From Cantharellus purpuraceus (Eukaryota > Basidiomycota > Agaricomycetes > Cantharellales > Hydnaceae): a stretch of DNA of 64,000 bases. Shown here one piece after another: positions 17,853-62,869 of the stretch. Below the pieces are notes generated by a model. That model did no database searches. It was not told where the DNA came from and saw nothing but the letters and a program-made list of their open reading frames with translations. Position numbers and translations under genes: made by a program. Numbering within the stretch: the first letter of the stretch is position 1; every line of letters starts with the position of its first letter. The stretch lies in the NCBI GenBank assembly GCA_025174535.1, contig JALBUN010000014.1, positions 1 through 64,000 of the forward strand. Reading direction: 5' to 3'.

Positions 17853-20800
17853 ATGTCAAAGAGATCCCACGCGTCTCTATCCGGCATCGATACGGTGCGC
17901 AAGTTACTAAAACGGCCTCGAACGTCGTCTCGACGATCTCCCTCTCCAGCGCCTCCTGGACCGTCAGAGTCAGGCGGCGCCTTCGTCCCGCCAGTCGATG
18001 CCCATCTACCTCATACTGTATCCGGAACGTCAAACTCAGAAAGCACTTCCAGATCCTCCGCTGATGCTGTTCATACTCATCAGCCACCAAACTCGCTGGG
18101 TGGTGATGGCCACGTCAACCACTTTGACAACCTCCTTAATCGCACTGATCCTCATCGGACGTTGGCTCAGGATGTTCGCGGCATTGCTCATGAGGGGTTC
18201 AAAGGTGGCCTTGTCATGGCGGACACAGTGGGGTATGCCCTCCCACCGCTAAAAGCTGCTGCTACGGGGGCAAACCGTCTCATGACGGTGATCGATGTAT
18301 GTATCTCTAACAGTAGGTGACTGTTCAGGACTAACTCATGAGACAGAAAGCGGAACAGAATAAGCGAGGCTTCGAAGCGATACAGGAGACACTAGATGCC
18401 ATCATCTCCGTCATTACGAAGTATAAGCAGCACGGCTCTCAGGGAGCCCAGGAAGAAGCAGCTGGTCCGAGTCGTGTTGCAGATTTTTCAACGTCTGTGA
18501 TTCCATTGTGCTTCATCGGCCTACCTTGGAGCTGACTAGTATTCCAGTGCTATGAAAGCTCACAAGGATGAAATCGGACGTGTACAAAACCACGGGTATG
18601 TTAGGCGTGCGATCGAGAATGTCAAAGATGGCTCTTTGATTACACAATCGTTTCGCGACATTGGATTGGCGAAGGGTATATTCAACGTATGATTCTTCTG
18701 ACTATGTGAAGACAGGTTCGCTTAACTGACGGATTCCAGATGGGGACCATGCTTCGAGTTGAGGACATGGTACAGGATATATTGGGAATGCTCAGAGAGG
18801 AAACCACTCGTGAGTTGGCCGTTAATGTGTTGCTGTAATTTTGATGACAGGGGGATTGAGGCCGTCTTCAGACGGACACCGCGTCTTATGTTGAAGCGAC
18901 AACAAAGGAAATATTGCAAATCCTCAGGGGTGAGGAGACCACTCGTGAGTCGGCTGTGGTCTTATGCTTCTATGTAGTTTTGATGACAAACGGATAGGCG
19001 GTCCTAAGATGGACACGGTTGAAGCTATGGTAAAGGACATATTGCAAATGCTCAGGGAAGAGGTGATTACTCGTGAGTTGTCTGTGATGTGTGATGCTTG
19101 TGTATAGTTTTGATGACAGGGATTAGTCGGTCCCCAAATGGACGCCACGCTTCATGCTGTGCAAAGCCTCAGTGAGGATAAAGAAATGACCCGCGTCATT
19201 CGTGAGTTGGGTGCGATGTGATGTTATGTGTACTTTCGTTGACAAAATGATTAGAGAGTCTTCCCCATGCCAAACACGCATCTTACAATACCCGTCAATC
19301 ACCTGACGATATTGAACCTCAGGGTTGCATGGCAGGCACCCGTGTACAGATCTTGGCCGAACTCGAGCAATGGGCGCTTGACGATACAGCTCCAAAGGTC
19401 TACTGGTTGAATGGGATGGCGGGGACGGGCAAGTCCAGCATTGCCCACACCCTCAGTAAAATACTGGATGAGAAGCAAATGCTTGGAGCCAGCTTCTTTT
19501 GTTCTCGTTCAGCTTCCCAAGAGGTTAGAGATGCAAGTCTCATCATCCCCACCGTTGCCTCTAGGCTTTCTCAGGCCTCTCCTCTGCTGCGATCTGCAAT
19601 GAGCCAGGCTATCGAGAATGAACCCGACGTGGGTTCATTGCAAACCCTCTCAATGCAGTTCCGCTTGCTGCTGGTACAACCAATTCAGCGCGTCCTTGAT
19701 CCGTCTATCAAGACGTATAAAATTGTCGTCGTTGACGCACTTGATGAGTGCACCAAACTTGGGACGGTGGAGAAATTGATCCAGGCTGTCGTTGAATTCA
19801 CTCCAGACATACCTCTCAAATTCTTCATCTCCAGTCGTGATCAGACCACAATCCGGAACGCCTTTCATCATAATCCTATGCATCTACCAAAGATCCTTTC
19901 GTTGCATAGTGTTGAGAGAGCAATCGTGCAAGAGGACATCAAAACGTACCTGCAAGCTTCCTTGTCTGCAATTGCCCAAAGATTCCAACAACCTATATCC
20001 TGGCCCCCTGTGGATGAGCTCGAAATTCTTCTCGAGCGGTCGGACCGATTGTTCATTTACGCCGCAACGGCCGTTCGGTATATTGGTGCACCTGATGTCG
20101 ACTTCAGAAAGCGCTTATCTCACATCACTCGTCTCACGCCGTCACGGATGCAGACAGGAGTAATCGATTCGCTCTACAATGACATCATGCAGCAGGCGTT
20201 CCATAGCAAACTTGAACCTGACGAAGTGTCGCCAAGGCGCCAGACGCTTTCTGCTGTTGTCTTCCTTCTTGACCCCTTGTCTTTGAATGACCTCGCGTCC
20301 TTATTAACCATAGATAGCCTTCAGGCACGGGTCGCTCTGGCACCATTTCGCTCCGTGATTCATGTATCTGCTGCCGACATTGGTCCCATTGCCCTCTTTC
20401 ACGCCTCGTTTCGTGATTTCATTGTTCAACCGTCTCGCTGCGAGAAGCACTTCTTGGATGTTTCCGAAGGCCACCGATTGTTAACTGTCGAGTGTCTCCG
20501 GTGCTTGAACCAGTCTCTTCAATGCAATATTAGCAATTTGGACAGCAACACGACACACTCTCTCCCATATGAATCCAACGCTCTCCAAGGCAGCTTACGA
20601 TACTCGTGCTTGCACTGGGCCTCGCATTTCGTGCATGCTTTTACAGAAGCTTTAGAACACAGTTCAGTGATCGAGGTCCAGGAGCTTATTTCCGAGTTTG
20701 TCAATGAACATCTGTTACACTGGTTCGAATGTCTCAGCGTGTTGAAAGAGCTCGAATCAGGTATAAAGTCGCTTGACAGAGCCAGCGAAGCGATCTCAGT

Positions 20801-22886
20801 AAGCACCAAGTTACTTGGGAAAAAGATCCTTGATAAATCCCTTTCCCAGGCCTTTTCTGAGAAGCCCGTTGGATTTGAGGGCATATCACCTCTCTTGGAA
20901 GACGCGCTTCGGTTTCTGCAATTCGCCTTTGAGCCTATCAAACAGCAACCCCTGAATACGTATCGCTCTGCGCTGGTTTGGACCCCGGGAAAGTCACTGA
21001 TGCGTGAGCGATATGCCGCCACGCTCCGCGGCACTCCCCAAGTGATACTTGGGCTGTCACAGTTTTGGCAGCCACTGGTGCATGTCATACCACACGCCCG
21101 AGAAGTAACGTCTGTTGCGTTTGCACCTGATGGAAGCCGCCTAGTATCTGGCTCAAAGGACCAGACAGTTCGGGTCTGGAACACTGCAACTGGGGAGAAA
21201 GTGGCCGAACTGGAAGGCCATACAGGCAGGGTGATGTCCGTGGCCTTCTCGCATGAAAAACCTGGACGTTTCATTGTATCTGGGTCAGGCGATAGCACGG
21301 TTCGTGTTTGGAATGCAAGGACATACGAGACATTGCATCTGCTGAAAGGCCATAAGCGTGGAGTGATGTCTGTTTCCCTGTCAAGGGACGACAAGTACGT
21401 GGTGTCTGGTTCGGACGATACGTTTATTCGAATCTGGAACACAGCAACGGGCCAGCTTTTCCGTGAGCTGAAAGGCCATTCAGATATGGTGAAATGTGTC
21501 GCGTTCTCTCCAGACTGTCAACACATTGCATCTGGGTCGTATCGCGAGTTATGGGTCTGGAGAACGGATGGTATCATAGAGCACAAGCTTGAGCCCCCGT
21601 CTGGAGTAGGCTGGATGAGGGACGTTTCTTTCTCGCATGATGGCCACCGAATCGTGTGCAATCAAGGCAGTATGGCATGGAGGACAACAGGGCAGTATCT
21701 CTCTGTGAAGGACACATACGAGAGAATAATGACCTCGTCCGTGGCTTATTCACCAGATGACGGTGAGATCGCTTCTGGCCTAAAGAATGGAGAGGTCCTG
21801 ATCTGGAATTCGGCGACCGGGATGAGCCACTACTGGCTGGAGGGCCACTCAAGTAGGGTTACCTCTGTCGCCTTTTCACCTGACGGCAGCCGCATTGCCT
21901 CTGGATCGGACGAAAAGACGGTTCGAATCTGGGACACGAGCCTGAGGGATACGGACGAGCATGGAATCTCTTCAGAGAGGCTGAGATTTGTCGCCTTGTC
22001 GCATGACAGCAGGCGGTTTGTGTTTCTGTCGGGCAGCAAGCTTGTTCAATCCTGGAATGTGGCACAAGCTGCAACAAAGATGAAGGAGCTGTTCTATTCT
22101 GGATTAGATCGAGTCACATCTTGTGCGCTTGCACGCGACGGCAATCGTGTTGCGTTGGGATGGAACAAGATGGTTTGGATCTGGGACCCGGCGATGAACG
22201 TCATGAGGCGCAAGATGATGGGGCACTCCGATGTGGTACTATCCGTCGCCTTCTCCCATGATGGAAGCCGTGTTGTATCGGGATCATCTGACAAGACTGT
22301 TCGAATATGGGACTATCACGCAGGTAAACAAATTAGCTTGTATCAGCATTCGGATGAGGTATCGTCCGTTGCATTCTCTCGGGATTATTGTCGCGTTGTA
22401 TTTGGATCGGACGATCAAACAGTTCGGATATGGAACCCAGCAACCGCCGAGATAGAAAGCGAGCTAACGAGCCGTACAAGCACTGCAAAGGTGAAGTCTG
22501 TCGCCTTCTCGCACGACGGCAGTCATGTCGTATCTGGATGGTCCGATGGAACGGTTTGGATATGGAATGTGTTGACCAACGAGTCCAGTCTACTGTCTGA
22601 GCGAATCCAATTGTCGGATGGGACCCGAATCCATTCTCTGAGCAACGGTCAATTTCACATCTACGATCCAGCTGACCAGGAGACAACAAACGATATCTCC
22701 CCGTACCTATTATGTATATCAGCGAATCGCGACTGGATCATCGGTGAACAGGCAATGCACAACTGCTGGATACCCACCCAATACCGGAACTTTACCATGG
22801 CGAGTGTGGCTGGGTCAATAGTGTGTCTGGGATATGCTTCGGGGCGTGTTATTATTTTGGACCTGAAAAGTACCCACGACGTTTAA
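17853..22886 (+). CDS. NACHT-WD40 STAND protein (fungal NLR-like)
   Basis: Eight exons give a continuous frame of 1,554 codons: 17853-18296, 18347-18492, 18548-18686, 18740-18809, 18861-18944, 18998-19072, 19127-19201 and 19255-22886. The N-terminal ~345 residues start with a Ser/Pro/Arg-rich segment (MSKRSHASLSG...) and match no domain I recognise. Exons 4-7 are tandem copies of one helical segment. The NACHT NTPase has a P-loop NGMAGTGKSSIAHT (about residue 398) and Walker B VVVDALDEC (about 507). About eleven to thirteen WD40 repeats follow from about residue 960 (for example SPDGSRIASGSDEKTVRIWD). Some blades are diverged. Such proteins are thought to oligomerise on NTP binding and act in non-self recognition or signalling; the ligand is unknown. 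Confidence 0.9.
18740..19254 (+). repeat. four tandemly duplicated exon-intron units in the NLR gene
   Basis: Four exons of 70, 84, 75 and 75 bp encode related peptides, for example VEDMVQDILGMLREETTR and VEAMVKDILQMLREE. The introns between them are also alike: each begins GTGAGT(T/C) and contains TTTTGATGACA or a close variant. The unit is about 130-140 bp. Splice phase is 1 at every internal junction, so adding or losing units keeps the frame. Confidence 0.8.
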
Positions 22887-34096: not shown

Positions 34097-37000
34097 CTAG
34101 TTGAGGTACCCGCGGCACTTTGCAGCGCCACAAAGGCAGGGTATCTTAAAAAACAAAAAAAACAGCATCAGTCAAACAGTCGACACAATCCAACACCCCA
34201 AATCAAAAAAAAACCACCTCACCTTTTCTTGTTCAATGGGAAAGTGATAATCTACAATAAAACACCCAGCCCATGAGAAAGATGGACATCGTAAGAGGGC
34301 TCTGAAACTCACCGTATGTGATCTCATCACCAAGCTCAATGTCCTGCTTAGCGTAAATCACAATCTTCTTCTCCCCACTAATAGTAATGATCTTCGCCGT
34401 GCAATTCGGGTCACAAGAATGATTAATTAAGCGCCTAAAAAATAGAAAAGCAAAAAGCAAAACAAAAAAAGCCAACCATCAGTTCACCATTTCCACACAC
34501 ACACACACAAAACCCTGTTGACTCACCCCAAATTGCCCTTCTTCGTCGCATCCACCACCAAATCATCATCAATCCGGAACAAATAACTGCTCCCGATCCC
34601 CTGCCTCTCATACGCCCGCTCCCTTTTATCCGCCACCGCCTGCCGAATCACCTCCCCCACATACTCAATCACCATCTCCCCCCTCCCAATCCGCTCCATC
34701 GCATACAGCCCCCAATCGTGTATCGGACTCCGCGCAAACCGCAGCTGCTTCTTCCGCGTCTGCAGCTGGTTAAACTTGATCAACACGCTGTCCTTGCTCC
34801 CCGCCATCCCCGCGTCCGCCAGACTCAGCGCCAGCGCCCTGTTCAGATCGTCCACCCCCCGCGCCTGCACGCGCGCGCTGGCGCGGTTCGACCGCGACGA
34901 CGTCAGCGTCTGCTGCGGCGGCACCACCACCACCGGCGAATCCGACGCGTTATTGCTGTTGTTGTTGTTGCCGCCGCCGCCGTTGTTATTGCCGTTCGCA
35001 GGCTTGGCATCGGCGCGGACAATATACTGCGCCACATACCCCGCCTTCTCCGTATGCGGAATCTTATACGACCCCTCCGTCCGCGCCGAGCCCGTCGCAT
35101 GCACCCGGAACCGCGGCAGCCCATTCGCAGTGACCGACACAGACGCCAGCGGCTGCTCAGCCTGAGCACAAGGCGGCTCAAACACGCCCAGCGCCGCCCC
35201 CGCCGCAGCCTTCACATAATACACGTCCTCCTCGTCCCGACACACGCCAATGTCGATCGGGTCCGGCGGCGGGAGCTCCGGGGACGGCGTCCGAGGCGGC
35301 GTCGTCGTCCCAGCGGGCGACGAGAACGGCTCGGGGATGTCGACCACCGCAACGGGCGCGGTGGGCTCGTGTGTCGCTGTGACTATGACGACATCCTCAT
35401 CCTCCTCCTCCTCCTCATGCGCTGCTGCTGCTGCTGCTGCTGCGGCCGCCGCTGCCTTGGCTTTAACGTCCCTCTTGGCCGGTCTCTTCTTGCTCTTGGC
35501 TCCCTTCTTCGTCGATCTCGGCGGCGGCGGCGCGGCGTCTTCAGCTGCAGTGTTGTTATTGTCCACTTGCGCCACCAGCGTCTCCTCGCTGTTCGCAAGA
35601 CTCGTGACATCCGACGCACTCTCCGTCTTGCGTTTCTTGACCTTCGTCGTCCCCCCACCCGACGCGTCCTCGTCCTGCTGCTGCTGCCGCCGTTTCTTGG
35701 GACTGGGCCGCAACACCCCAAGATGAGCAGGCGTCGGTGGCTCCGTCTCCGCCACCGCGTAGCCCTCCTCTTCAGATTCAACATCCTCGCTGATGACCTT
35801 GACAGCAGCCCTCTTCTTGCGCTTAGCGGGAGGCCCTTCTTCTTCCTCGTCCACCCTTGTCACCACAGACTTTGCCACCACCTCCACCTCATCGTCCGTC
35901 TCCTCCGTTTTCACCACCACCACCTCCTCCTCCCTCTTCCGCTTCTTCTTAAAACTCAACCCCTTCAACCCCAACCCCGTCCCAACACCACCGGCACCGG
36001 CACCGGCACCACCCCCCGCCACCCTCGCCGCCACCCCCGCCGCTTGCTCAGCCCCCACATCATCACACACCCTACTCTCCCTCTCCTTCCTCTTCCGCGC
36101 CCGCTCCTCATCCGCAATCTTCAGCACCCGCTCGCTAATCACCCACCTCGCCACATCCATCTGCAGCTTCTCCTTCAACTCACTCATAATGATCTCCCGC
36201 GCATGGCTCACGAGCGTGCGCTCGTCCCACACCACGTCGGCCCCGAGGTCGCGCTTCGCAGGCACCGGCGGCGGCGGCGGCGCGTGCACAGACATGTTCA
36301 AAGACCGGCCGTGGAGCTGTCGCATACCCACCACAAGCCGCGACCGTCGCGCCATATCGCGCGCGTTGAACGTCACAAACCAATACGGCGGGTCCTCCAA
36401 CACCTACAAACGTCCGAGCACGAATAGACCGAGTACGAAATGAGCCCTCAACACGCCGAGGGAGACAAAAACACCAAAAACGCACCTTGTCAACGTCAAA
36501 CCCGCTAAACATGCTCCGAACCTCCGCCTCGGTCACGCCCAGCCCAGCAGCATCGACCTTGACATGGTCAAACGGGCTGCGGGCCAGCTCCGCCAGCACA
36601 CCCTCGTCCCTCGCCTTGCCTTTGCCGGGACTGACATGCACGCCCAGCCCAGGACTGGCGTGTATCCCCAGCTTGGCATGTGCCGGCGGCAGCGGCGAAG
36701 GCGTCCGGGGCGGCTGTCCCGCGGCCCCCCACGGAGCGGCCCATTTCGGTGCATGACGGGACATGGGAGTCAGGGGCGCAAGCGGCGACTGCTGCTGCTG
36801 CTGCTGCGAATGCAGCGACTGTGCATACGGCGCGGGTTTTTGTGGGAGGGAGCCGAGGTGCTGTCGATTAGACCAGGGTGCGTGCTTTCCACTGGCCCCC
36901 GCCGACTCCCCTGCCCCACCACCGGGCGTCGCGCCATTCTGAGGGCTGGCGGTCTGAGCAAAGGAAAGCGCGGTGCTGAGCCGTGCTTTGACGAGTGCCG

Positions 37001-47591: not shown

Positions 47592-49002
47592 TCATTCTCT
47601 GGCAGACATCAAACGGCTAAGTGACAATACCTCTTTCACAACGCTCTCCACTTCATTACCATCCACTCCATTGTCCATAACATGCACCAAACGTTCTTCA
47701 AACGAAGCTGAGGGGTCAAGAAAACTCCAGTTAGGTGAAGGTGAAGGTTTTATCCAGTCAAAGTCCTGCGCCATGGTGTGCTTTGAAGGTCGCTATAATG
47801 GACAGCACGCCCTTGAAAAGCATGTCACCTACTAAAGGAGAAACTAACCTCAGAAAAGCTTTGAAGTGATGCATGGTGTAGTGAGGTTGGATATGCACCG
47901 AACCGGATATCTTGTGAACGCTCAATGATTGGGTTGGAAAGGACGTGAAGGAAGACTGTCGTATTTGTGGAGTCGTGCATACGAAACTAGAAGACAAAAT
48001 AATGTTGTAATGAATCGAAGGCGAAGATACAAGAGTTAATCACGAAAGAAAGTGTAGTCAAAGAGTCACAGGACGGGTGAAATGAATATGATACATGCCC
48101 CGAGCGACGTACCTGATGACAGCCAACAATAATAACTGAGTCATGAATTTCATGGAGGAGGACACTTCCTTCGATCGGTGGCATAATGAGTATAACTTGT
48201 GACAGAGCTCTAGCGTGCAGAGCAGTGATTGTGTATGTTGGCTCGGACTTAGCCAAACCATCCTTGAAAGACGTGGAAGGGAAGAGATTTACAATACATG
48301 CTTGAAGATTAGTAAGGGTGATATCTGAGCTGTGCGAAACGCTTCTTGGTTGCGAGAGAGGTCTGTCGGGAGGACGGACAAGAGAGGAAATGGTGAGGTG
48401 TGCCGATGATCGAGTGGACAGTGTAACATTAGTAGTGGAAGGAATCGTCGGGGGTTCCTGGGGTGGGGCCTGGGGCTTGTGCTTAATTACTTCGGAGGCT
48501 GGGAGTGGAGATGATTGGGAGGCAGGAGCAGCCGGTTTGCGCTTAAACGCGAATTTTGCCTTGGGAGCGCGACATCTTGATAAAGTTTCTTCTAATACTT
48601 TGAGTTGCTAAGGCAAAATTCGTTAAATTTTCCCAAATATGATGAGAAGTCCATTGAGCTTGGTAATACTCAATAGTTGGAACAGCTAGATTGCACCTGT
48701 TCGTATTTCCCCTGGTCATATGTAGGGAGATATGAAGTTGCATCAACGAGATTCTTCCGCAGCTTCACAACATCAGAAGAGAGAGAAGTAAATTCGGCAG
48801 TGTTCGTCTCAGATATCGAGCCCGATGGGATCAAGGCACCTAGTCGCGAAGTGATGTCTGAACAGGAACAGAACGCCGTAAATATGTTCCTTCATTGCCA
48901 ATTGTGTTATTGATTCGCACCACTTTGTTTGGCTTGAAAATGGCTGTAAAAATTTGCAGATAGGTCTGTTACGTGCGTTTCATCATTGTCTTCTGACATC
49001 AT
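47592..49002 (-). CDS. TBCC: tubulin-folding cofactor C (TBCC)
   Basis: Five exons on the minus strand (49002-48921, 48857-48697, 48607-48113, 47986-47849, 47765-47592) give 349 codons with matching phases, close to human TBCC. The N-terminal domain contains ANFYSHFQAKQS and VDATSYLPTYDQGKYEQ, like the TBCC_N three-helix domain. A Pro/Ser linker follows. The C-terminal beta-helix domain has LHEIHDSVIIVGCHQFRMHD, NPIIERSQDIRFGAYP and FDWIKPSPSPNW. The last motif is diagnostic. TBCC stimulates GTP hydrolysis by beta-tubulin in the folding complex. The catalytic Arg expected in the Q-x-R-x-H motif is present (CHQFRMH). Confidence 0.9.
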
Positions 49003-51619: not shown

Positions 51620-52625
51620 ATGGAGTTCCGAACTGTCACATAGTCCTTCGCCCCGCTTGCGTGCACAGACATTACAAAGCAGTGCGATAGCCATCTATCC
51701 GATGACAAAGACGAGAGGGGGTCCTGTACTAATCATTCCTTTGCACTCCACTTTGCACTCCACCGCGCATACAATAGGCTCACATCACGGGGAATAGGGC
51801 GTCAACTCGCTATGAGTTTCCGGCCGCGGGCTCGCATCATTATCTCCTTTCGCTAGTCTGATGCCCATTCTATTTCGGAGACAAATAACAAAGACACCGT
51901 TGTCTATTTTATATTTCACCCAGTGGAATTGGGGACCATTTCATCCATCAATATCATCATATGCAGTGCTAGCGATGTTTGTCCCATTTTTTTGGCTGTG
52001 GAACTTGCACCTTACTTGCAACAGGGTTCTCCGGAGTAAACACGAGAGTACTGTTACCACCGTTCTAAATTTAAGTCCTCAGCATAGATGTTTCTCGTCT
52101 TCTCCACGTGATTTAGGAAGCCTAACTGACAACTGATCATAAATTTGCCAATCTACTCCACACGTCGACCATCAACAGTAAAGGGCACTCATGTGTATTG
52201 CTGTCCCTCTAGGTTGAGATTTGGACTTGGAGAGAAGCAGCCCCTGCATGCTCAATACGTTTTTCCGGTGCTCAAAATCCCGGTCAGCTCTACATGAGGT
52301 ATTGCTCGTTTGCCGTGAGTGGTATTGCCATATTCCTGACTCCCTCAAAACTACCCTTTAAGATTATTATTATAGAGGGGTGCAAAGCCCAATATCAAGA
52401 AACTTCGACCATTGCGTTTTGGGGGTTGAGACATGAAGGGGATATGCTTTACTACATAGTGGCGGTACAGCTTTTCTTAGGACATGGGTCCGCAGGCACA
52501 ATCACTCATGGAGATGATGCTGGAAGCCCTGGCGGGTGCGGGCCGCGTGGCCCCCTCAGGTGGGCGCGACACAATCGATCAGCATCTTGGCAGGAAATTT
52601 CACCCTTTAGGTACCATTGCATTCA
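51620..52625 (+). pseudogene. relic of an NRPS-PKS gene, internally deleted
   Basis: At 51620 a sequence like the start of the intact gene at 55723 appears, with the same AIYPMTKTR block (intact: AIYPMTRTQ). A stop lies early in the frame. At about 52149-52192 the text matches the end of the second carrier domain (59909 onward). At 52230-52450 one frame reads RFSGAQNPGQLY, LTPSKLPFK and FWGLR, matching RFPGADNPDELY, PTPSKLPFK and FWGLK of the KS start. At 52484 it reads MGPQAQSLMEMMLEALAGAG, like the MDPQTRLFMETTLEALEDAG motif. The 4-kb C-A-T part present in the intact gene is missing. Confidence 0.75.
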
Positions 52626-55722: not shown

Positions 55723-58700
55723 ATGGATTTCATGTCAGGCCCCGAACCTCAACAGAGCACGGTCACCCGTTCGCGAATCCAGACACTCCCGGAGAGTGTA
55801 ATAGCTATCTATCCAATGACCAGAACTCAAGAGGGCCTGTGGACGGACTATTCCTTTGCCCCTCATCGTACACATAATAACCTCACTCTTAAGCTCACCG
55901 TCACGCACGGGGATGAGTCGTATGAAGGTAGCCTCGGTGCGATACATACCGGTAAGAGCACGTCTACTGTGCCTGCACTAGCCACCGGAAATCTCATTGT
56001 GTCATTGATAGCCATAGGAACGCTGACGCGCCGCCATGCGATCTTGCGGTCCACATTTCACGAGCCAAACGGGTACCAGAACCGTCCCTTCGTGGCCGAA
56101 CACGACCCCTCCACTGCAGCCTCGACCCTGCACATTGTCCCTGCTGCGAAGACTAAGCAGGCTGCGGCGAACCTTTTGAAAATGTTGCGTTGTGGCGTCG
56201 ATCTTTCAACGCATTTTGCGATGCGGTGGATTGCAGTCATCTCTGCAAAGGAAACGGAAGTATATGTTGTGTCTCATCACATTGCGCTTGATGGGTCGTC
56301 GATGAGCCAGCTCTCTGTGGAATTTTTTGATATATTGGCGCAGCTAAAGAATGGCGAAGGCGCCAGTGCGCCGCAGACGCTGCAGTTCAGTCATGCACAT
56401 ATTTATGAGGTCAGTTATGAATCCATGTGCTGTTGGTGCTCGCAGCTGATGTCACATTCATTAGGCTGCGTTTATGGCTTCAGCCGAATTCGAAGATGCC
56501 TCACGCTTCTGGCTTGGGCAGCTCACCAATGCCAAAGCCATACAGTGGAAGGCGGCGAACTCGTCGACTTCTAAAGCTACCACTTACCGTTCCATTCAAA
56601 CTTGGATGGACTTTCCCAAGGCGGTCAGCATTTTTTGATTAACAATTTTGATGGCAATAAATATTCTGACACAATGTACTACCAGGACCTCGGGGCGTGG
56701 GGCAACCGCTTCAAAACATCCTGGTTCCGCGTGGCGGTTGCGACTATTGGTCTCTTGACCCGCATTAACTCTGAACCAGACCATGGATCTGATCAAAATG
56801 TTTGGGTCGCCTTTGGCGGCCGCCCCGCGGGTTTCGAGAATGTGCTGGGCCAGTTCGCGAACGCGCTGCCTATCAGGATACCATACTCAGACCTCCTGCA
56901 GAATAATACGCCGGGAGCTCCGGTTCGATTCGAGGATTTGGTGCGGTTAGTGTCGAAGCAGGTGTCAGCCGCAAAAAAGCACGAACGGATGGCTATTATG
57001 GACATTAGCAGAGCGACTAATACGAGGGGCGCATTCGTAAATAGGGCGCAGGTCGCAGTGACTCTGTCTCCGAAACTCTCCCGCGGAGATGCGAGCTTGT
57101 ATCCAGTGGAGGGCCCATATGATTTATTTTTCTGTTTTCTAGAGGCTGAGACTTCGGTCTCTCTTGGCGTAAGTGCATCGTCGGGTGTTTATATGATAGA
57201 TGATATGCTTATGGTTTTTATCGCAGGTAATTTATGACCCACGTCTATTTACTGAGGGCGAGATGAATGGCTTGAAAGCTCAATTTTTCGAGATTCAAAA
57301 AGCCACTAATCTAGAATCCAGCTTGGATATCGCCTCTGTATCGGGAGCACTTGTTCCCCGTATTTATCCCGAGGTGGATTACACCGATCTTGAGGCCATA
57401 AGTGCCTGCCGAATGCACGTCTGGTTCGAAGAGCAAGCCGTGCGGAACCCTGAGCTGGTCGCATTGCATTGGGGCGAGCGGAAGCAGTCGGTGACCTACA
57501 AGGTGTTGAACCAGTCAGCGAATCAGATCGCACATTGTCAGTGGCCAGTTTTATGGTTCGGGATGTCCTGATATATTCAATGGTTATTGTGCAGATCTTC
57601 GAAGCCTTGGAATCGGGCGAGGGATGGTCATCGTGCTGCACATTGGGCGTAACTTCGCGACGATGGAGTGGATCCTTGCGGTGCTCAAGTCGGGTGCGGC
57701 GTACGCAATTGTCGATCAGAGCCACCCAGTAGAGCGTAGCCGTGCTGCAATATCGGTTGCAGAGCCGTCCTTCATTGTCGACGACGGCGGTAGTCCGAAG
57801 TCGAAGGAGCTCTTCGAAGGATTCGAGGGTAAAGTGATCTTTACCAATGATATCAATTTGTCTGGCATGCCATCACACAATCTAACGGATGAGAGCGAGG
57901 ATGACGACCTTGCGTATATTGTCTTTACATCTGGAAGCACCGGTGAGTTGTCGTCTGATTGATGAGTTTTAGCATCCGACTGAATCAACCCAGGCAAGCC
58001 TAAAGGTGTGGAGATCGAACATCGTAACCTGTCGCATTTCGTGGCGGATTCATTTGCATCAAAATATGTGGATCTCGGGCCAGGCTCACGAGTACTGCAG
58101 TTTGCAACGTTCTCGTTCGATGCTGCCGTGCTGGAATGGGCTCAGTGTCTGGCTGTGGGAGCCACTTTGTGCTTTGTCGATACACCGAAAGCTCTCGTTG
58201 GAGACTACCTAGCGGACGTGATTGATGCTAACGAAGTGACGTTCATGCATGTGACGCCTAGTGTCCTTGCGACGCTCCCCACATCACGCGCGTTACCCTC
58301 TCTGAGACAAATATCAGTTGGGGGGGAGATGGTGCCGGCTAACCTGATCAATACATGGAGACCGAGGGTGCACGTGCAGAACGCTTATGGTCCGACGGAG
58401 ACGTAGGTTATCTATGAATCAACGGTAAGGATTTATTCATGATTGGGTATAGGACGGTTGTCATGGCACACCAGCCGCAACCCAAAGACAAGGAAGCGGA
58501 GCAGCCATCGTCAAGCATCATCGGTGCTCCCCACAGCCACACGAAGTTTTATATTTCCAATGAAACATACGATAGGATCTTACCTATCGGGGAGCTCGGT
58601 GAGGTGTGTATTGGAGGACCACAAGTTGGGCGGGGGTGGGTTTCTGTTGCTCTCGGTATTTTGAATCTGACGAAGGTTTGTAGTTACAAAGGCCAAGCAG

Positions 58701-61700
58701 AGCTGACGGCAGCTAGGTTTGCGATCCATCCCGAAGTCGGCGAGCGACTATATCGTACGGGTGACCGCGGCAAGTTGCTGGCGAATGGAGCAATATCTCT
58801 TGTGGGACGGATTGACCGTGAGGTCAAGGTTCGAGGTGAGTATTTGTAATACTTTCGCAAGGTGCTGTGACTGATGGACGGGCCTCGTAGGATACCGGTA
58901 AATCAATTTCTACTCACCCTTTCTGTCACAATTCTGACGATCCTCAGGATCGAACTGGAGGCAGTCGAGCGAATGATCTCCAGCTTGGGTGATGACATTG
59001 AATGTGTGTCTGTCCAGGTGAACACGGCAGGGACTGGACTCTGCGCGTTCATTTCCCCTCAACGTATTGATGGGGACTTCGTGAGAGCTGGGGTTGCGAA
59101 GCGGCTGCCCGACTACATGGTCCCAAGTGCAATTTACACGTTGCCTCGTTTGCCTTTGAATACGAATGACAAGGTGGACCACAAGGCGATCAAGTCCCAG
59201 ATGGAGACATTGATCGCACAGTACGGGAAAGGGAAAGGAGCATCAGCTCGCTCTGTTCCGCTGGCTGCAGCTCGCGTCACCACACCTCCGCGCCCTGCCA
59301 CTATTCGTCCGAAGACAACTACTGAGGGCATCATTGGCCAGATCTGGCAAGGCCTCCTTGGCCTATCATCACGTCCCGCATCTGATACAAACTTCTTTGA
59401 GCTCGGTGGAAATAGGTGCGTCCTTTGATCAAACTGTGTCACCACAACGAGAGCTAATGATGTTGGTTCTAGTCTTCTGGCCACGAAACTTGCAGATGAA
59501 TTGCGGCAGAAGTTCCCCAATAGCAGCATCAGGGTTGTGGAGTTGTATTCTCAAGCGACGGTCAAGCAACAGGTGGAACTAGTTGATGGCAGTCGTGCAA
59601 TTCCACAGGATTCTACGGTGGAAGTTTCCTCCATTCCCAGTGATCCCGAGCCAGCGTATACGGTCCCTACTTCGGGGTCAAGCGGGACGTTGAGTGCAGT
59701 GACGCACAAGCTTACCGAAATTTGGCAGAACATTCTGGGCATAAAGAATATTACCACTCAAGTCAATTTCTTCGATGCAGGAGGCCACAGGTAGGGTATG
59801 AGCTTAAATCACTGTCGCAATACTGATTCATGGTTTCAAGCCTCGCGGTTTCGCGTCTGTTGCATGAAATTCGCGAAGCCTGGCCAACAGTTGACGTCAA
59901 GCTCGTAGATCTATTCCACAAGTCGACCATCACGAGCCAAGCAGCACTCATCTTGCCGTCGCTTCCGGTGGAAACTCTCCCAGAACATCCAGAACATCCC
60001 CCCCAACAGCTTCCTGTTCAAGTCCCCACACACGAAGCAGTTGACTCTGGCTCGGAGATCGCCATAATTGGCCTCTCGGGACGCTTCCCTGGTGCTGACA
60101 ATCCCGATGAGCTTTACCAGTTATTGCTCGATCGCCGCGAGGGATTCACGGCATTCCCCACCCCGTCGAAACTCCCTTTCAAGGACGCTATATTTATTCC
60201 TAGGAAAGGTGCCATCGCCAATGTAGAGGACTTTGACCACTCGTTCTGGGGATTGAAAGAGGATGAAGCTAGGTATGATTTGTTGTGATGCTTCCATGCG
60301 CTAGTCTTACCGATACTTTCAAGGGACATGGACCCGCAGACGCGGTTATTTATGGAGACGACGCTTGAAGCCCTGGAGGATGCTGGCCACGTGCCTTCCT
60401 CAGATGGCCACAACAAAATCGGTCTATGCGTCGGTGCTGCTACGAACACCTGGTTGCATGGTATGTCTGTAAAAATTGTACATGTTGACTTGCATTCTAA
60501 CCTGTTCCTAGCCACCGAGGCAGTGTCTGGCGATGACTTCTACAAGACACATCGCGAAGTACTGACACCGTCGGTTTCGGCTCGGACTGCGTACCATTTG
60601 AACCTTCATGGCCCCAATGTGACGTTGAACACGGCGTGCAGCTCGGGAATGGTCGCGTTGTCACTTGCCGTTGACCATCTCCGTTCTGGACAGTGTGATA
60701 TTTCTGTGGCCGGCGGCGTTTCGATTTCGTTCCCTCAGTGAGTTTGGATAGCTTCCTGAACGCGTGCAACCCGTTGACGATGATTTTACCAGAGGAGGTT
60801 ATATAACTCAAGAAAGGCAGATCTTTTCCACATCGGGCCACTGCAGACCTTTCGATCACCGCGCAGACGGGACGCTTCCCGCAGATGGATTGTGTGCGGT
60901 CGTGCTGCGAAAACTTTCTGATGCTGTGAGAGACGGGGACAGAATCTACTCGGTGATATCGGGTGTGGCGATTGGCTCTGACGGACACACGGACAAGGCT
61001 GGATACTCTGTTCCAAGTCCGCGGGGTCAGGCTGAGCTGATCAAGCGTGCATGGAAGAATTCTGGGTTAGATCCTAGAGATCTTACTTATGCCGAGTGAG
61101 TGGATATGTGGTGATGCGTGCAGTGAAGGTTCGCGAACTGATGAATGTTATTGTTTCAGGTTACACGGCAGTGGTACATCAATTGGGGATGCGCTCGAGC
61201 TGGAAGCACTCAATCTGGGACTTTCAGCTGGGGAAGCACAGAGACCGTCGTGCGTGGTTGGATCCAACAAGGGGAACTTGGGTAACTGCGAGGTAAGTTG
61301 CGCTTTCATCAATGCTCAGAGTCTTCCTTACTGAGCAATATCTAGGCGGCATCTGGGTTGGTATCGCTCATCAAGCTGTGCAAATCCATCCAACACGATC
61401 TCGTCCCCCCTGTCCAATCGTTCGAGCGTATCAGTCCAATGATCAATCCTAGTTTGCCGTTCAAGATCGCCGCTGCGCCGACACGTTTGTCAGAGGACGC
61501 GATTTTGTCCGTGTCGAGTGCCGGTCTGGGAGGTGTGAATGCGCATTGTATTATTCGGTATCCTCCCCCGCGCTCCCGGAGAGCGTTGGACGGTCTCCTT
61601 CCGTCGAGACGGAGGAATGTGAAGAGATTGGATGCACCTGCGCGGGTGGAGCGAGGTGTAGTTGTCGGTGGAGGGTTTGTCGACAAGGCAAGGGCGATCG

Positions 61701-62869
61701 CGCTATGTGCTTCTCGGCTTTTGAGCGTGGATGTGGATGAGGACACGGATCTCCGGAATGCGGGTTTGGACAGCAATACGCAAGTGCGCCTTGTGCGTAT
61801 GATTCTGGATCTCTTTGGGCCTCCATCATTAGGGTAAGTTGTATGATATATCTCAGGTATTGTTGCTGACTCTATATCTAGTGTGACGGCATTCATGCAG
61901 CCCACCTGCACGCCTAGGATTTTGTCTGCGTCTCTTGTGGAGGATGCGGCCGTCGCTCCAACGCTTCCACCCTATGCCTCGGTTCTACAACACGGAAACG
62001 ACACGGTCTATGTCCTGCTTGCGCCTGGTGGTGGCAGTTGTGCTTCGTTTGCAGATCTGATCGACGCTCTTCCTCGGTCGGTCACAATCCTGGGACTCGA
62101 GCATCCTAACTATGTTCGGCCGACGAGCCGGCAATATTCTGTCGACGACCTTAGCGAGCTCTATATCGATGCACTAAAGCAGTACCCTGGCAGTATCAAG
62201 GAATGCGTGCTAGTCGGAGCATCGTTCGGTGGTGTGGTTGGTGTCGAACTGGCAACGCAGCTTCCTCAACACGGGTTCAAGGTTTCCTCGATCGCACTCC
62301 TCGATACCCCTTGGCCTGGCTCGTTACCATCTGGTGCCTTCAGTGTGAACGGTTTCCTCCGCGACGTTTATGGCATCATCATGCGCTCCCGCGAGTTGGA
62401 CTACCCCACGCCCAATCAATCCCCCCCGCGTCCATCTACGCCCTCCAGTTATAAATCCCTCCCCGACTGTGGCGATGGTAGTAACGGTGGATGTGCGACA
62501 TTCGAGAGCATGGCGGTACCATTTGACGCAGCGAGCTTTGAAGCCTTCCTTGCGTCTGCCGCCGTTGCGGGTGGCGACAGCTCAGAGGCGTTTCGGCGCG
62601 TGCAAAAGTCAGACTGGAGGACGCTTTCTGCAGTGTATGCGGATAATATCTGCGCGTTGGAACGGCATAGCGTGGACGACGTGCGCTTGGATGTCCCTGC
62701 GCTGTATATTCACGCGGCGGTGGATGGACTGGATCGTCATGCCCTTGCGCCGTGGTCGGATGTTTTTTCGAGGTTGTTTGTGAAGCATATTGATGCGCCG
62801 CATGCATCGGTATATACGGGGGAGAACGCGAAAGCGGTTGTAGCATCTATGGCGAGGATCGTTTCTTGA
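55723..62869 (+). CDS. hybrid NRPS-PKS synthetase, C-A-T-T-KS-T-TE
   Basis: About 18 short introns join into a continuous frame of about 2,040 codons. C domain: VVSHHIALDGSS. A domain: YIVFTSGSTG joined to KPKGVEIEHRN, NAYGPTE, ERLYRTGDRGK, GRIDREVKVRGYRIE and LPLNTNDKVD. Two carrier domains follow, each with its Ser rebuilt across an intron (LGGNSLLA at about 59414 and AGGHSLAV at about 59790). KS: IAIIGLSGRFPGADNPDELY, active Cys in NTACSSGMVAL, His in ELHGSGTS, and NKGNLGNCEAASG where Asn replaces the usual second His. There is no acyltransferase; after the KS comes a carrier with NAGLDSNTQV, then a thioesterase with VGASFGG and APHASVY. The overall type resembles tenuazonic-acid synthetase TAS1 (C-A-T-KS). 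The product is probably an amino-acid-derived acylated or cyclised metabolite; its identity is unknown. Expression is probably cytosolic. Confidence 0.92.

Follow-up and report, generated by a model that had tools for sequence, protein, structure and literature searches.

The described systems closest to the enzyme considered here are a fungal and a bacterial one, both cited, like the other papers below, from excerpts of the publications. TAS1, the tenuazonic acid synthetase 1 of Pyricularia oryzae, couples isoleucine with acetoacetyl-CoA, and its ketosynthase (KS) closes the ring (PMC4640141, PMC7698770); it acts alone in vitro (PMC4640141). In Streptococcus mutans, mutanocyclin is made by MucD, with condensation (C), adenylation (A), and peptidyl carrier protein (PCP) domains, and MucE, with KS, acyl carrier protein (ACP), and thioesterase (TE) domains; the excerpt lists no acyltransferase (AT) for the pair (PMC10161427). 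MucD and MucE are reported to extend N-acyl-leucine once with malonyl, which an added transacylase supplied in trans in vitro, after which the TE closes the tetramate by lactam formation (PMC10161427). Here, we analyze a gene of Cantharellus purpuraceus lying in the first 64,000 nucleotides of contig JALBUN010000014.1 (this whole stretch is called the window). A single uninterrupted gene carries the domains C-A-T-T-KS-T-TE, where T stands for a carrier. It is near certain that it codes for a fungal hybrid of nonribosomal peptide synthetase (NRPS) and polyketide synthase (PKS) that belongs to the TAS1 family and falls in the sister clade of the one holding TAS1 itself. This is a known family with a new subfamily architecture.

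Gene Structure and Domain Organization

The gene lies on the contig hereafter called C14 (window 1–64000) of a 40.15-Mb genome in 50 contigs. Once 17 introns are removed by hand splicing, it forms a single open reading frame of 2076 amino acids (aa) in 18 exons, from the ATG at 55723 to the TGA at 62869. The introns are 48–64 nt long, are all of the GT-AG type, and were placed by hand from the reading frame and conserved motifs. Splicing and Pfam searches bear out the coordinates, the strand, and the domain order that a previous sequence-only reading of the window had proposed. The features are the following:

55723..62869, + strand: whole gene C-A-T1-T2-KS-T3-TE (18 exons, 2076 aa, hand splicing)
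56011..57295, + strand: condensation domain (C), aa 97–466 (PF00668, 71 bits; HHIALDG at aa 185–191)
57425..59173, + strand: adenylation domain (A), aa 510–988 (PF00501, 249 bits; PF13193, 20.2 bits; pocket code DALHIVAVVK)
59336..59581, + strand: carrier T1, PCP-like, Ser1069 (PP-binding; Ser codon split by the intron 59416–59472)
59714..59952, + strand: carrier T2, PCP-like, Ser1175 (PP-binding; Ser codon split by the intron 59791–59840)
60055..61561, + strand: ketosynthase (KS), Cys1407, His1543, Asn1583 (PF00109/PF02801; PDB 6kog, 290 bits; trees)
61688..61924, + strand: carrier T3, ACP-like, Ser1728 in AGLDS (third PP-binding stretch; masked profile test)
62012..62860, + strand: thioesterase (TE), Ser1862-Asp1889-His2055 (PF00975, 35.6 bits; alignments; predicted structure)

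The KS scores 204 bits with ketoacyl-synt and 96 bits with Ketoacyl-synt_C. The TE match is above its cut-off (26.4 bits), and the match to the C-terminal subdomain of AMP-binding proteins (PF13193) is below its own (24.5 bits). In line with the sequence-only reading, no acyltransferase was found: no such family is among the 12 Pfam families found in the protein at E ≤ 1, a list from which program filters remove most matches above about 0.1.

One may ask whether adjacent NRPS and KS-T-TE genes were merged by the splicing model. All six linkers between domains are contained in single exons, as seen by comparing the exon map with the domain boundaries. Hence, the layout is independent of any intron placed between domains and does not reflect two joined genes. 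Ten relatives, themselves gene predictions, are fused in the same way (see following). We consider such an artefact extremely improbable, and it was rejected given the position of the linkers.

In both T1 and T2, a phase-2 intron interrupts the Ser codon at an identical place, and the Ser codon of T3 is intact, with no intron inside. T1 and T2 therefore look like tandem copies and T3 like a separate acquisition, which suggests that a carrier was duplicated in tandem together with its intron and that T3 arrived independently.

The KS Belongs to the TAS1 Family

The best single-domain match of the KS in PDB is the KS of TAS1 (6kog); 7zma scores higher by summing two KS domains. The three conserved motifs are NTACSSG, LHGSGT, and SNKGNLGNCEAASG, so that the KS retains the first His (in LHGSGT) and a Lys (in SNKGN) and has Asn in place of the second His. 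Both the motifs and the resulting Cys-His-Asn triad, already put forward from the letters alone, were found in the spliced protein and in the family alignment. The family set includes 61 relatives (fungal where the source is named) and this protein. The triad is present in 59 of these 62 sequences, this one included; in the remaining three, a triad position is affected by incompleteness or misalignment. Judging from these sequences, Cys-His-Asn is a signature of the fungal TAS1 family.

For the trees, nine of the 62 family rows were removed as near-duplicates or truncated (P0125, P0126, P0127, P0134, P0143, P0162, P0132, P0172, and P0165). The KS tree of 69 rows places the remaining 53 in one clade (support 100/99), separate from 10 PKS rows and from six KS rows of the same genome. 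The PKS rows were chosen from 114 listed non-family proteins, seven of the 10 are named as bacterial, and they are not monophyletic in this tree; the own-genome rows were roughly joined from tblastn pieces, and their places are unsure. Within the family, the root row P0156 (Calcarisporiella) branches first. Clade I contains seven rows, including P0153 of Alternaria. Clade II contains 45 rows (100/98), divided into IIa (21 rows, including this protein) and IIb (24 mainly ascomycete rows). TAS1 is absent among the best 120 of 214 protein matches, and its KS was taken from the PDB alignment for a second tree, where it joins clade I (then eight rows, 99/96), with the 10 PKS rows apart at 100/100. 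The closest KS, with 80% identity, is that of P0008 from Hysterangium stoloniferum; P0198 is a further relative among the best 120 of the 214 matches. The single T of other family members is T2-like in five clade I rows and in the root row, and gives a near tie between T1 and T2 in most ascomycete rows.

The PDB match, the triad, and both trees thus agree with the kinship to TAS1 suggested by the sequence-only reading, and in neither tree does the KS group with the sampled type I PKS. The KS does match general ketosynthase profiles and PKS structures, which would fit a conventional chain-extending KS from a type I PKS (iterative or modular) whose motif has degenerated or whose AT is cryptic. 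But given its place in the TAS1 family, apart from the PKS and own-genome rows, and no AT family at E ≤ 1, this explanation has next to no probability and was rejected.

The pocket code of the A domain, read at anchor motifs and compared with P0153 rather than with the A domain of TAS1 itself, is identical at 8 of 10 positions to the code DALHLVAVIK of this Alternaria relative. As only two positions differ, the A domain likely accepts a branched hydrophobic amino acid, as in TAS1.

Carriers and Thioesterase

The three carriers were compared with ungapped ACP and PCP profiles in which the carrier motif was masked. T3 is ACP-like (ACP score 3.8 versus PCP score −11.4), and T1 (18.7 versus 26.2) and T2 (−10.6 versus 5.0) are PCP-like. 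The profiles placed 122 of 125 held-out ACPs and 48 of 49 held-out PCPs correctly. The family shows the same trend, T3 being ACP-like in nine of the 10 scored cases and T1/T2 being PCP-like in 21 of 22. The T3 Ser and the Ser, Asp, and His of the TE are invariant across 12 aligned TE-bearing sequences, five of them from ascomycetes; the positions of Ser1862, Asp1889, and His2055 are likewise invariant in an alignment of 10 sequences. The predicted structure of the TE (mean pLDDT, the model's per-residue confidence score, of 74.6; below 50 at residues 170–210) matches thioesterases of NRPSs and PKSs, with moderate TM-scores of about 0.5–0.6 (4zxh, Pks13 TE, Vlm2 TE, and EntF).

Distribution of the T3-TE Tail

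T3-TE follows the KS in 19 of the 45 clade II rows, this one included, against none of the eight other family rows. By group, a TE is found after the KS in 9/21 rows of IIa (including this protein), 10/24 of IIb, 0/7 of clade I, and not in the root row. Another four IIa and eight IIb rows stop 60–250 aa past the KS, and 11 of these 12 have a Ser at the place of T3. In P0146 (Mycena citricolor, 2073 aa, IIa), a cytochrome P450 domain stands after the KS instead of T3-TE. The absence of a TE from a gene model is weak evidence, because P0102, a Gloeophyllum trabeum protein marked as partial, has no T2, T3, or TE and yet is 97% identical to P0104, which has them, over the aligned stretch (54% of P0104). 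This pair points to an annotation problem.

The complete layout C-A-T-T-KS-T-TE is found in 10 relatives, whose named sources are all Agaricomycetes: P0027 (Athelia psychrophila), P0104, P0124–P0128 and P0134 (six proteins of Mycena citricolor), P0130 (Favolaschia claudopus), and P0131 (Mycena capillaripes). The TE match of P0134 is short. These proteins have the whole layout and the same KS triad in common with the C. purpuraceus protein, and the KS identity is 56–71% in the five compared (P0027, P0104, P0124, P0130, and P0131). TE-bearing relatives from ascomycetes, e.g., P0158 (Cudoniella), P0145 and P0150 (Hirsutella), and P0147 (Beauveria), are organized as C-A-T-KS-T-TE. They resemble this protein in the T3 Ser and the TE triad, but have one T before the KS, mostly Gln or Glu for His in the A code, and mostly TNCASS as the KS motif. 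The sequence-only reading had called the layout unusual and knew of no described basidiomycete enzyme that shares it; with 10 public proteins of the same layout, it is not unique.

Possible Reactions of the KS and TE

From its domain types, the protein reads as C-A-PCP followed by KS-ACP-TE. We tentatively favor a single malonyl extension by the KS on T3, with malonyl loaded in trans and release by the TE. The A domain would load one amino acid, probably branched hydrophobic, onto T1/T2, where the N-terminal C domain would acylate it with an acyl-CoA. The KS would then take the N-acyl-aminoacyl chain on Cys1407 and condense it once with malonyl carried by T3. As no AT was found in the protein, this malonyl is proposed to reach T3 through loading in trans. 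Finally, the TE would free the γ-amino-β-keto chain, perhaps by closing a lactam to give an N-acyl pyrrolidine-2,4-dione, in the manner of MucD and MucE. The extension is favored because T3 is ACP-like, because the catalytic residues of T3 and TE are kept in two phyla, and because of the parallel with MucD and MucE; it seems somewhat likelier than a ring closure of the TAS1 type. The TE in 19 of 45 clade II rows against none of the eight other family rows, the malonyl-ACP condensation of FabH-like KSs, and the A code close to that of P0153 also count in its favor.

The triad does not decide between cyclization and extension, since FabH/KAS III (the FabH-like priming KSs) also carry Cys-His-Asn and condense with malonyl-ACP (PMC12664062, PMC8036411). 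Its use as a sign of cyclization only was therefore rejected. The sequence-only reading had pointed to TAS1, whose Cys-His-Asn KS forms the ring instead of extending a chain; the triad is there, but ring closure does not follow from it alone. The same reading had the chain either cyclized by the KS or passed to the last carrier and released by the TE. Given an ACP-like T3 and a TE with its residues intact, one extension followed by TE release is suggested as strongly as cyclization by the KS.

The ring closure of TAS1 is the first alternative, possible but rather unlikely. The C domain would join the aminoacyl group on its carrier with a β-ketoacyl-CoA (e.g., acetoacetyl-CoA); a Dieckmann closure by the KS would then form and release a 3-acyl-tetramic acid, T3-TE being ancillary (editing or a side branch). 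The KS shares with that of TAS1 the family, the triad, and the block SNKGNxGNxEAASGLxSLIK, the A code is close to that of P0153, and this is the chemistry of TAS1 itself (PMC4640141, PMC7698770). The family-wide changes of the KS, detailed below, are also not reverted. On the other hand, the conservation of the T3 Ser and of the TE triad in the aligned TE-bearing relatives of both phyla would be odd if the tail were dispensable.

A KS acting as a relay is an unlikely solution, less probable still. Here, the KS would only hand the chain (N-acyl or N-β-ketoacyl aminoacyl) over from T2 to T3 unextended, leaving the TE to cyclize or hydrolyze it. A transfer-only KS with one triad His altered is mentioned in PMC7698770, and the intact TE residues and the absence of an AT from the search of the protein are consistent with such a role. 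Against it, the KS keeps the LHGSGT His and the SNKGN Lys, and the characterized KS of the family forms a C–C bond (PMC4640141).

Several observations weigh against the extension that we favor. The only TAS1-family member that, to our knowledge, has been characterized forms a ring rather than extending a chain. An exon-wise, nonexhaustive search of the genome recognized no free-standing malonyl transacylase, because all seven matches to PF00698 fall in genes read as PKSs (on contigs C4, C5, and C25, each near a KS match) or as fatty acid synthase (C34). The carrier test covered 19 family proteins, of which nine had no match to the T3 pattern and were left unscored, and the T3 of P0158 is PCP-like, the sole exception among the 10 scored. 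Relative to the 10 PKS KSs, this KS and clade I share changes that run through the family (Asn instead of His at 1583, Ser instead of Thr at 1545, Ala instead of Pro at 1552, and Leu instead of Ile at 1553), none of which is reverted in the clade majorities. The T3-TE tail may also be a later addition to a cyclizing KS, the sampled clade I and root rows being without it. Elsewhere in the KS the picture is mixed: IIa has the PKS majority residue, against clade I, at 1408, 1478, and 1642, and the reverse is found at 1267, 1411, and 1598.

Genomic Surroundings

Searched for C domains, the genome yields this gene and a second match, on C4, and a search for KS domains gives no second close match. 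A decayed copy of the gene was found 3 kb upstream by tblastn and blastn of the gene against the window. It consists of pieces resembling the beginning of the C domain, the region from T2 to KS, and the beginning of the KS, and a weak KS match at 52249–52437 belongs to it. The features of the surroundings are these:

51654..52580, + strand: decayed copy of the gene, in fragments and containing stops
19251–22883, + strand: frame of 1211 aa rich in WD40 repeats
34526–36403, − strand: frame with N-SET and SET matches (COMPASS, Set1-like)
47990–48607, − strand: frame with a TBCC match
C14, about 74.9–78.7 kb, 12 kb downstream: frames of a copia-type element (gag, integrase, reverse transcriptase)

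Upstream, the scan covered 10 of the 40 window frames of at least 150 aa before 55700 (9 of the 22 within 34.4–50.9 kb and one at 19–23 kb); downstream, it covered 10 of the 15 frames of at least 130 aa that lie in the following 20 kb and do not belong to the gene. No tailoring enzyme was recognized among these scanned frames, a search in which spliced genes can be missed. The enzyme may therefore act alone, as TAS1 does in vitro. Elsewhere in the genome, C5 holds four PKS-like loci, near 0.54, 0.90, 0.97, and 1.00 Mb, whose KS and AT matches score almost alike. Another one, with KS and AT matches, is on C25 at about 36–41 kb, with a reductase-like frame nearby, the latter read by eye without a profile search.

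Comparison with Known Systems

A paper of 2015 already reported basidiomycete homologs of TAS1 together with their Cys-His-Asn triad (PMC4640141), and a tool paper of 2021 mentions unexplored variation among the NRPS-PKSs of Aspergilli (PMC8582187). The proteins described in a KS-ACP-TE context in the excerpts of PMC12634532 and PMC3091305 contain an AT. No description of a T3-TE–bearing sister clade with tandem carriers was found in the open-licence PMC papers searched. According to its excerpt, a published survey of TAS1-like proteins, 12 of them basidiomycete, left out sequences that had “unrelated domains” (PMC10161427), and this filter may have dropped proteins of the C-A-T-T-KS-T-TE type.

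The protein resembles TAS1 in the order C-A-PCP-KS, in having no AT, in the KS family, and in the Cys-His-Asn triad. It differs by a second PCP before the KS and by the ACP and TE after it, whereas TAS1 has a single PCP and ends with the KS. The KS of TAS1 is in clade I and this one in the sister clade. With its additional T2 and T3-TE, the protein therefore represents a sister subfamily and not TAS1 itself, and TAS1, so far the only case known, becomes one of the branches in a family that has two or more architectures.

The resemblance to MucD and MucE is drawn from layout only: without its second T, this protein has the layout of MucD followed by MucE. Those are two bacterial proteins with a single PCP, whereas here there is one fused protein with an extra PCP. 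One could speculate, with more doubt than for the extension itself, that it is a fused, AT-less fungal counterpart of MucD/MucE. In such an enzyme, a type I KS with a KAS III–like Cys-His-Asn triad would perform a single Claisen extension with ACP-bound malonyl loaded in trans, and the TE would close the tetramate, so that one family would contain both the Dieckmann and the lactam routes, switched by the ACP-TE tail. The comparison makes testable whether a Cys-His-Asn KS cyclizes, extends, or relays, and whether the ACP-TE tail that distinguishes this subfamily from TAS1 decides between them.

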